Shown here: piece by piece, positions 4,055 through 6,930 of the stretch
How the letters are laid out: each line of letters opens with the position of its first letter
How positions within the stretch are numbered: position 1 is the first letter of the stretch
NCBI GenBank assembly: GCA_016932615.1
Contig: JAFGCN010000015.1
Location: forward strand, 1 to 9,151
DNA from: Candidatus Aenigmatarchaeota archaeon
GTDB lineage: Archaea > Aenigmatarchaeota > Aenigmatarchaeia > QMZS01
Length of the DNA stretch: 9,151 nucleotides
Reading direction: 5' to 3'
The notes under the pieces: model-generated
What the model saw: only the letters and a program-made list of their open reading frames with translations
Databases searched by the model: none
Told to the model about the DNA's origin: nothing
Translations under genes and position numbers: made by a program

Positions 4055-4198
4055 AGCCCCAGCCGGGGTTTGAACCCGGGACCTCGTGATTACCAATCAC
4101 GCACTCTTTGTCCGACCGTTCGTGCGGAAGCGTACTTTCCGTAGAGGCTTTTGTGCGTTTACAGCACAAAAGGGTCTACCAGACTGAGCTACTGAGGC
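4055..4198 (-). tRNA. tRNA-Thr (anticodon GGU) with a 70-nt D-loop intron
   Basis: The 144-nt gene folds into a normal 74-nt tRNA when 70 nt are removed from the D-loop. The acceptor stem pairs GCCTCAG (4198-4192) with CTGGGGC (4062-4056), with one G-U pair. The D stem is GCTC with GAGT around loop AGTCTGGTA. The anticodon stem CGTGA/TCACG encloses TTGGTAA, giving anticodon GGU, which reads ACC and ACU threonine codons. The variable loop is AGGTC. The T arm CCGGG-TTCAAAC-CCCGG is intact. The discriminator base is U73 (4055) and CCA is not encoded; the genomic 3' sequence continues TCA. Exon 1 is 4198-4178 and exon 2 is 4107-4055. The junction can slide over the shared AGA, so the ends are uncertain by up to three bases. 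The identity is secure; the splice site is predicted only. Confidence 0.93.
4108..4177 (-). other. Non-canonical tRNA intron (D-loop, about position 20/21)
   Basis: 70-nt insertion between U20 and A21 of tRNA-Thr. The flanks form a relaxed bulge-helix-bulge. The outer helix is the D stem GCTC/GAGT. The central 4-bp helix is exon GTCT (4184-4181) with intron GGAC (4113-4110), ending in a U-G pair. The inner helix is GACC (4176-4173) with GGTC (4117-4114). Strand 1 has a GGTA bulge and strand 2 has AAA opposite a single A. Cutting GGT/A and AA/A yields the standard D-arm. Inside are a perfect 9-bp hairpin with a 7-nt loop (4172-4148) and a 5-bp hairpin CGGAA/TTCCG. The intron has no room for an open reading frame or homing endonuclease. 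Confidence 0.8.
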
Positions 4199-4230: not shown

Positions 4231-4272
4231 ATTCGAATGCAGATTTTAACCTTCAAAAAGACCGATTTGCGA

Positions 4273-4281
4273 AAATATATA
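4273..4281 (+). promoter_or_regulatory. TATA box for the cysteine-rich secreted protein gene
   Basis: AAATATATA, within a longer AT run (4272-4288), is centred 26 bp before the ATG at 4303. That spacing places the transcription start at or next to the start codon, so the message is probably leaderless. It also argues for 4303 over the in-frame ATG at 4237, which lies upstream of the TATA box. Confidence 0.65.
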
Positions 4282-4302
4282 ATATATACTAAAGCATATT
4301 TT

Positions 4303-4800
4303 ATGGGGCGTTATAAATTCAGCTCTTTTGAAACGGGGATTTTTGCTGTTCTGGCACTATTTGCCTTCATGGCTTTTTCAAGCCCTGCGATGGCTGAGAC
4401 CTGCCAGGAGGTATGCAAAGACTACCAGCACTGGTACTGCGGGGACTACTGCGCGCCATTCAATATCCATATGGGCGGCTATTTGGGCCAGGCGGACGGA
4501 TGGTGCCTTGAGAGCCGAGGGTTAGATACCTGCTGCTGCTGGAATGACGACAATTCCTATATGATTCCAATGGCTCCTCCACCAATGGATGGCTTCTGCT
4601 CGGAGGATGCCTATTGTGGCATACTGAATGGAGAGCGTGGCTTGTTTTACGGGGACGCTTTTAAGTGGAACGGAAACTGCTACCTTTCAAAATTCAGGTA
4701 CTGTGACTGCAAGGATTCTAAGTGTGTAAACCCCTTTGGTGAAACCTTCCAGGAGCTTACATTCAGCTTTTACTGGATACTGTCCGGCTATATTTTGTAA
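4303..4800 (+). CDS. Secreted cysteine-rich protein, unknown function
   Basis: 165 residues with a typical Sec signal peptide: a short basic N-terminus (MGRYK), a hydrophobic core (about 12-25) and a signal-peptidase-like AMA/ET site after residue 31. The mature part has 14 cysteines (34, 38, 46, 50, 68, 77-79, 99, 105, 126, 134, 136, 141), starting with spacing C-x3-C-x7-C-x3-C and including a CCC triplet. Aromatic residues are frequent, and a short proline run (APPPM) follows the CCC. This suggests an extracellular disulfide-stabilised fold, or possibly metal binding; neither can be shown here. The last 15 residues (LTFSFYWILSGYIL) are hydrophobic and might contact a membrane. I did not recognise a family. 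The in-frame ATG at 4237 was rejected because it lies upstream of the TATA box and would bury the signal peptide. The 3' end overlaps the Pop5 gene by 13 bp. Confidence 0.82.
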   Translation: MGRYKFSSFETGIFAVLALFAFMAFSSPAMAETCQEVCKDYQHWYCGDYCAPFNIHMGGYLGQADGWCLESRGLDTCCCWNDDNSYMIPMAPPPMDGFCSEDAYCGILNGERGLFYGDAFKWNGNCYLSKFRYCDCKDSKCVNPFGETFQELTFSFYWILSGYIL

Positions 4801-5910: not shown

Positions 5911-6930
5911 TTAGATTGGTGAGAGCTTTGAAACGGTCATTTCAACCTGCTTTTTAACCCGGTAGGTGTAGTCGGCGGTTGCAAACAGGCGAACAATCTC
6001 AAACTCCTTGTCTTCAAGGTCCAGGTCTGTCGGCTCAAAATAGAAATAATACCTCTGAGGGTTCTGGCTTAGGACCCTTATTGGCTGCTTGTTTAATGCC
6101 CATGAGCCCCAGTCCTTAATATCTCCGTCCCGGAATGTTTCCGAGCAGTCCACAATTTTGCCTTTATTGTCCTCAAATCCCACTCTTAAGTTGTCAGGAG
6201 CTATTTCGCTTATTTCTCCGCTTCCCTTGTTTATTACGGACAGCCACACAGCCCTCGAGCTTTTGCTGTCTTCTTCGCCGCTTCCGCCTTCCTCATAAAT
6301 CAGCGGCTGGTCGCTTATATAGGTCATATCAAAATTAAGCTCGACAGGCCCCTGGGAAGCAAGGTCCGATATCGTAACTGTGAGCTTTTTTCCGGAGTTA
6401 AGGTAGTCCAGGTAAGTCTCCTTCTTGACATAAGTAAGGGTGACGAGCCGAGTTGACCGGTAATCATACTTTACCGCTATTTCAGGCGTGACTGTTGCGG
6501 CCATGGCGTCTATTTCTGGGGTTTTAAGCTTGAATATGTATGCCCTTTCCTGCCCCGGAACCATCTCGAACGTTTCCTTTCCATTGAACTTGGCAGTGCA
6601 GTCGACGCAGGTAAGAAGGTGCGCATTCGAAACCGCAAAGGATGAGACTGTTACGCTTCCATCAGGGTCCTTGTTTACGTTTTTCAGGACAACCCGGATG
6701 TTGACTTCTGAGTTTGGGCTGACTCTCCCATTGGGCGCGGGCGAAACCTCCGCGCTTGTAATCTGGATGATGTCGGGCACTTCCACGTCTTTTTTGTCGG
6801 TCTTGCAGTTTCCTATCACAGAGCAGCTGCTGCCTCCAAAAGAGCTGTCGGTGCAGCCGGAAAGAAATGTCAGGGCAATCAAAAGTATGGCCGCAAGTGC
6901 TGCGGCTTTTTTCGCTTTAAACACGACCAT
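5911..6930 (-). CDS. Predicted lipoprotein with beta-rich extracellular domains, unknown function
   Basis: 339 residues. The N-terminus has lysines (5, 7, 8), a hydrophobic stretch (9-23) and a lipobox LSGC ending at Cys26, so the mature protein is probably lipid-anchored outside the cell membrane. A linker with CSVIGNC (Cys36, Cys42) follows. The region from about 54 to 160 (ITSAEVSPAPNGRVSPNSEVNIRVVLKN through a stretch ending FKLKTPEI) has the alternating pattern of an immunoglobulin-like or CARDB-like beta sandwich, and carries a CVDC pair at 108-111. A second beta-rich part follows, split by the acidic, low-complexity EEGGSGEEDSKSS. No catalytic motif is visible and no family was recognised. 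The ATG at 6930 gives a normal signal sequence. The gene precedes Rpp30 by 42 bp on the same strand and diverges from the DUF63 gene across 24 bp. A surface binding or structural role is a guess. Confidence 0.8.
   Translation of the reverse strand: MVVFKAKKAAALAAILLIALTFLSGCTDSSFGGSSCSVIGNCKTDKKDVEVPDIIQITSAEVSPAPNGRVSPNSEVNIRVVLKNVNKDPDGSVTVSSFAVSNAHLLTCVDCTAKFNGKETFEMVPGQERAYIFKLKTPEIDAMAATVTPEIAVKYDYRSTRLVTLTYVKKETYLDYLNSGKKLTVTISDLASQGPVELNFDMTYISDQPLIYEEGGSGEEDSKSSRAVWLSVINKGSGEISEIAPDNLRVGFEDNKGKIVDCSETFRDGDIKDWGSWALNKQPIRVLSQNPQRYYFYFEPTDLDLEDKEFEIVRLFATADYTYRVKKQVEMTVSKLSPI

Follow-up and report, generated by a model that had tools for sequence, protein, structure and literature searches.

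A single-copy tRNA-Thr(GGU) gene of an Aenigmatarchaeota archaeon is split by a D-loop intron of a structured, widely spread family

A gene for tRNA-Thr(GGU) interrupted in its D-loop by an intron of 70 nt was found in the genome of Candidatus Aenigmatarchaeota archaeon, in a stretch of 9,151 nucleotides (positions 1 to 9,151 of contig JAFGCN010000015.1, assembly GCA_016932615.1) that is referred to below as the window. The intron is a member of a structured family which has spread among tRNA genes, in the D-loop, the anticodon loop and the T-arm, and into 23S rRNA. Taken together, the evidence points to a single tRNA-Thr(GGU) gene carrying an intron of a spreading family, which would be cut out by the tRNA-splicing endonuclease EndA before the exons are joined by RtcB, and we put the probability of this joint reading at about 0.92. 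Points that weigh against it are an EndA that looks like a single unit and appears to lack the loops linked to relaxed specificity, an unconstrained fold in which the D-stem is missing, a 5' splice site that is paired in the fold predicted with the D-stem, and a genome that is a draft in 29 contigs.

The gene lies at positions 4055-4198 of the window on the minus strand (Table 1), and its spliced reverse complement is a tRNA with the anticodon GGU and the discriminator U73. It reads GCCUCAG UA GCUC AGUCUGGU (70 nt) A GAGU G CGUGA UUGGUAA UCACG AGGUC CCGGG UUCAAAC CCCGG CUGGGGC U, with the acceptor stem GCCUCAG/CUGGGGC, the D-stem GCUC/GAGU, the anticodon arm CGUGA-UUGGUAA-UCACG and the T-arm CCGGG-UUCAAAC-CCCGG; all stems in the exons are paired and the conserved bases are kept. 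The cloverleaf closes only when the 70 nt between U20 and A21 are left out. ARAGORN called no tRNA in the window and the Rfam tRNA model matched the 3' exon only, at 23.5 bits against a cut-off of 29, in line with the initial annotation, which had warned that a finder built for canonical introns could miss or misname the gene. A purpose-written finder, in which introns were allowed at several places of a tRNA gene, gave it a score of 27.7, whereas no dinucleotide shuffle of the region, out of 2000, was comparable (maximum 18.2) and the highest score in a reversed-genome control was 21.0. The 70-nt D-loop intron at a non-canonical site, which had been proposed from the letters of the window, is thereby confirmed; the split gene is real and its tRNA-Thr identity is secure. 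A second, intact tRNA-Thr(GGU) had been named as one observation that would speak against it, and none was found in the host assembly, a draft 97% complete, with either RF00005 or the multi-intron finder. The gene is the only one in the host genome for the codons ACU and ACC, and since no intact copy was found elsewhere, the reader of both codons must come from it.

Table 1. Features of the interrupted tRNA-Thr(GGU) gene in the window
Feature	Position	Strand	Remarks
5' exon of tRNA-Thr(GGU)	4178..4198	-	acceptor 5' strand, U8, A9, D-stem 5' strand, D-loop to U20
Intron, 70 nt, in the D-loop at U20/A21	4108..4177	-	basis: cloverleaf closure and sister-genus orthologues
Core of the intron (77.7 bits with model R1): an extended hairpin, then ACGGAAAGUACGC	4121..4177	-	only R1 copy in the host genome
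Intron CGGAC, predicted partner of exon GUCUG (4180-4184); helix adjoins the splice sites	4110..4114	-	fold with the D-stem enforced
AAA bulge at the 3' splice site, predicted cut AA/A21	4107..4109	-	fold with the D-stem enforced; likeness to tRNA-Thr(CGU) and tRNA-Thr(UGU)
3' exon	4055..4107	-	A21, D-stem 3' strand, anticodon arm (GGU at 4092-4094), T-arm, acceptor 3' strand, U73

The window also encodes a thermosome subunit, a carbohydrate phosphorylase, a NUDIX protein, the RNase P proteins Pop5/Rpp14 and p30, a DUF63 protein and a DNA polymerase small-subunit-like protein, a gene content that fits an archaeon. Two further open reading frames gave no Pfam match: one adjoining the tRNA gene (4237-4800, plus strand) is Cys-rich and looks secreted, and the other (5911-6930, minus strand) is lipoprotein-like, with a Cys after a signal-like segment.

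AGA is present at both ends of the intron, so the exons could be joined anywhere from 20/21 to 23/24 without a change in the product. If the D-stem is held fixed in the prediction, the D-loop segment GUCUG forms a helix with CGGAC, close to the 3' end of the intron, and a 3-nt AAA bulge precedes G22; this helix and bulge favour 20/21 as the join, and together they would form the arrangement expected at the 3' site of an EndA substrate. D-loop introns occur in all three tRNA-Thr isoacceptors, each ending in AAA before GAGC or GAGU, and the AAA before GAGC in tRNA-Thr(CGU) and tRNA-Thr(UGU) of the host is identical. In the sister genus, the orthologues of tRNA-Thr(GGU) have a D-loop intron earlier in the loop and a T-arm intron, and as UCUGGUA-GAGU is unbroken in them, they support a D-loop of 9 nt and hence the removal of exactly 70 nt; an alternative shifted by one base, with 69 nt removed, is possible. 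The unconstrained minimum-energy fold of the precursor has no D-stem, and enforcing the D-stem costs 0.6 kcal/mol in stability. In the enforced fold, the predicted exon-intron helix comprises 5-6 bp with A14 unpaired and the 3-nt bulge is present at the 3' site, and the 5' site has no bulge but forms part of the intron hairpin, GUAGA pairing with UCUAC. A strict bulge-helix-bulge has a central helix of 4 bp with a 3-nt bulge on either side. This form was not seen in the predicted fold, where the 5' bulge is absent, so that the motif is relaxed at most. We infer that the gene, presumably essential, would be transcribed as a longer precursor, in which pairing of GUCUG with CGGAC would put the AAA bulge at the 3' site and the 5' site would lie between the exon-intron helix and the intron's own hairpin; EndA would then excise the 70-nt intron from this relaxed motif and RtcB would ligate the two exons.

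BLAST comparison of the gene with 60 relatives showed that the intron itself was matched and not only the tRNA, the intron body sharing 85-88% identity over 52-59 nt with introns that two other families carry in other tRNAs. A covariance model of the core of about 58 nt, named R1, had matches in 70 of 156 genomes of the class (48 of 104 genera), with up to 35 copies in one genome, and in 47 of 156 genomes at the stricter cut-off of a phylum search. The hairpin, with its lower part beside the 5' splice site counted in, is 95.8% paired among 65 distinct copies, changes on both sides of pairs number 121 against 28.6 in shuffles, and the covariation score is 0.443, compared with 0.129 in shuffles and no more than 0.051 when slid. 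Fitting the alignment to the model favours the structure, but the effect is large. No curated Rfam family was found for the intron core, matches in the window being limited to the 3' exon of the tRNA and, elsewhere, one below the threshold. R1 copies were found in introns of many tRNAs, at D-loop, anticodon and T-arm sites, including a D-loop intron in the tRNA-Thr(GGU) of a genome from another family, and twice in one 23S rRNA gene, confirmed as archaeal LSU by Rfam; rRNA introns therefore share the core of tRNA introns. This rRNA locus (L192, G026 C23:17100-18200) also contains a hairpin intermediate between R1 and a second core, R2, which is described below.

Other R1 copies stand in tandem inside introns or outside tRNA genes. 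Intron cores, of whichever type, that lie away from recognised tRNA genes were recorded at L191, L207, L210 and host C11:42449-42499, some of them in short arrays. Recognised tRNAs contain 32 copies, of which 29 are sense and three, in the D-loop introns of Gln(CUG), Gln(UUG) and Glu(CUC), are antisense. These antisense copies, like the copies outside tRNA genes and the tandem ones, would be natural products of a strand-blind, MITE-like mobile DNA whose junction pairing was selected later, in place of reverse splicing. Such a route would be compatible with splicing by EndA, but the great excess of sense copies and the covariation of the hairpin argue against it, and the three antisense copies belong to one genome and may represent one event; on balance we consider it rather unlikely.

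The host genome is a draft MAG of 1.26 Mb in 29 contigs with an estimated completeness of 97%. RF00005 gave 15 matches in the whole genome at E up to 1, of which 6 exceeded the cut-off, and none was an intact tRNA. The multi-intron finder was run on stretches of all contigs, and genes scoring above the best control were kept. As a result, a total of 36 tRNA genes were recovered and all 36 are interrupted, 16 by one intron, 16 by two and four by three. The 60 introns, whose individual boundaries are approximate, are located at 37/38 (21), in the T-arm (29) and in the D-loop (10). At least three more interrupted genes, two for tRNA-Leu and one initiator-Met-like, were recognised by eye. Splicing must therefore work throughout this genome. 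Across the class, RF00005 matches range from 2 to 63 per genome, by which the intron load appears to be variable and to be high in several lineages.

Several loci of the host deserve separate mention. Anticodons with A34 are unusual for archaea, and the two assigned by the finder, AAG (Leu) and AGG (Pro) at C10:41841-42073 and C9:24638-24892, are doubtful and may be mis-splits. At C7:138191-138478 (minus strand) the 3' exon of a tRNA-Ser(GCU) is repeated after the gene (TCGAATCCCGGCCCCAGCG occurs twice), as if two 3' exons might compete, and the tRNA-Ala(UGC) on C27 has an additional partial 3' exon. On C11 (L089, about 2515-2580), immediately upstream of tRNA-Val(CAC), a tRNA-Val 5' end cut short (GGGCTCGTAGTCCC) is fused to an R2-type core and is possibly a decayed tRNA gene.

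The tRNA-Thr(GGU) gene could likewise be imagined as a dead one, broken by an insertion, with a working copy in the missing part of the genome. A draft of this completeness and contig number leaves room for such a copy, and related elements do occur outside genes; but the exons are fully paired with their conserved bases intact, all other recovered host tRNA genes are interrupted so that intactness is not the norm, and the tRNA-Thr(GGU) genes of the sister genus are interrupted likewise. We regard a dead gene as very improbable.

The window intron is the sole R1 copy in the host genome. The idea that it represents the resident type of the host was rejected, R1 having no significant match to the other host introns. 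Most of these share the R2 core, in which a linker and an A-rich strand come after a pyrimidine/purine hairpin; it was detected in 59 of 155 genomes of the class. Judged by eye, R1 and R2 may be linked through the intermediate forms L189 and L192. The A-rich strand of R2 mirrors the 3' strand of the hairpin, with a value of 324 in the host copies against 277.7 +/- 5.2 in permutations and 298 against 273.6 +/- 2.5 in 40 copies from other genera. When each distinct stem is counted once, the values are 229 against 192.8 +/- 4.9 (host) and 178 against 162.3 +/- 2.2 (others), and in every set the observed value was reached by 0 of 2000 permutations. Moreover, GG follows the A-rich strand in 5 of 6 host copies with a CC loop and in 4 of 35 without (p = 0.0009), and elsewhere in 9 of 10 and 2 of 30, respectively (p = 2e-6). 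These R2 tests were devised after the pattern had been seen, and they control only partly for common descent of the copies. From geometry and register, R2 would form an H-type pseudoknot whose A-rich third loop runs along the stem; in the predicted detail, the hairpin loop pairs with the downstream tail and the A-rich strand lies along the stem in a triple-helix-like manner. A loop-tail pairing of this type was sought by eye in R1, and no covariation was found for it.

PF01974 and PF02778 each had one match in the host assembly, both in the same EndA gene. The protein has 286 aa, with a single catalytic unit and an acidic N-terminal extension, aligns best with the EndA of M. jannaschii and N. 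equitans, and keeps the catalytic Tyr, His and Lys (compared with 1a79). The initial annotation had predicted a broad-specificity endonuclease of the (alpha-beta)2 or epsilon2 type, and this point found no support in that form, although the annotation was right about the non-canonical intron, the missed gene and the lack of an intact copy. The search with the two domains revealed no separate gene for a beta subunit. The epsilon2 enzyme of the ARMAN type consists of three fused units of about 390 aa in all, and the host protein has one unit plus the extension. As no second match to either domain was present in the assembly, an alpha-only enzyme, perhaps of the alpha4 type, built from one catalytic alpha unit would be the simplest reading, and it is possible that a beta subunit was overlooked, being very divergent or located in an assembly gap. 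EndA types are mixed in the class, which includes single alpha forms, two adjacent genes and larger fused forms; G013, G026 and G037 each have a single-unit EndA together with a separate EndA in an open frame of 400-455 aa with two matches.

The ARMAN-specific loop (ASL) has 11 residues including Tyr160 and Lys161. At this place in the host EndA a Lys that is common in the class aligns with K161 of ARMAN-2, in a loop that is shorter by 4 residues and has no counterpart of the Tyr. The Crenarchaea-specific loop (CSL), of 15-18 residues with a conserved Lys (PMC12397907), is absent from the host EndA, a gap standing opposite it in the alignment with A. pernix. Relaxed specificity has been traced to CSL and ASL in other archaea (PMC6379350, PMC12397907), so that in the host it would have to come from another feature, for example the KRGPKS loop, or from a missed beta subunit. 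The KRGPKS loop is common to the class and resembles that of N. equitans, in whose EndA (PDB 3iey) the loop between the catalytic Tyr and His, PKKGKRSEREH, aligns with KLKRGPKSVKEH of the host; the N. equitans enzyme is heteromeric, alpha with beta, whereas no beta gene was found in the host. The identification of KLKRGPKSVKEH as the published broad-specificity loop was withdrawn, since CSL and ASL lie elsewhere (PMC12397907).

A gene for RtcB is present in the host genome as well. Removal of the intron by its own catalysis, as a self-cleaving or self-splicing RNA, would suit the highly structured R1 core conserved across the class and the pseudoknot-like constraints of its sister family, but it deserves very little credence, because the window has no match to an Rfam ribozyme family, the predicted exon-intron pairing beside the junctions fits EndA substrates, a sense ribozyme could not act in the three otherwise complete tRNA genes with antisense copies, and EndA and RtcB are both encoded. 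Beyond excision by EndA and joining by RtcB, a wider proposal can be made tentatively, at somewhat less than even odds: R1 and R2 would belong to an undescribed superfamily of structured spreading introns in Aenigmatarchaeota, with a pseudoknot of triple-helix-like build in the A-rich branch. In some members it would have entered practically all tRNA genes, and rRNA too, and its introns would be cut by an alpha-only EndA through a loop new to this role.

Position 20/21 is a listed site of archaeal tRNA introns (PMC4090602), and the D-loop intron alone is thus not new. Non-canonical introns have been described from Crenarchaeota, above all Thermoproteales, and from Nanoarchaeota (PMC4090602). 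The introns described here resemble them in the site 20/21 and in the occurrence of several introns per gene at 37/38, in the D-loop and in the T-arm (PMC4090602), and differ in lineage, the host belonging to Aenigmatarchaeota. Intron transposition has been proposed for Thermoproteales, with an unknown mechanism (PMC4090602). Compared with the Thermoproteales introns by their published description only (PMC4090602, PMC4033280), the present ones stand out by one core in 48 of 104 genera, a covarying hairpin, occurrence in 23S rRNA and a few antisense copies. All 36 recovered tRNA genes are interrupted here, against about 70% in Thermoproteales as cited in the parts of PMC11291895 used for this comparison. 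According to the same parts, Atabeyarchaeia and Freyarchaeia (Asgard) have introns in 92-95% of their tRNA genes, often non-canonical and several in over half, and are like the host in this near-total, multi-intron interruption; they are an unrelated lineage, those parts describe no shared structured core for them (PMC11291895), and in the host there is no intact gene among those recovered. Our limited literature search found no report on tRNA introns of Aenigmatarchaeota, and such reports may exist.

The interest of this host is raised by three unusual features, the saturation of its tRNA set, the structured core spreading through the class and the mismatch with the expected type of enzyme. 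Because most tRNA genes of genomes like this one escape tRNA finders, statements on the tRNA sets of such MAGs are affected. All recovered tRNA genes need splicing, apparently by a single-unit EndA without the Crenarchaea-type loop, and this puts to the test the accepted view that the diversity of introns goes with the type of endonuclease. The way in which archaea gain tRNA introns is unsettled, and since one core can be followed here across tRNA positions, tRNA species, rRNA, genera, sense and antisense orientation and partial steps, the question becomes testable by comparison.
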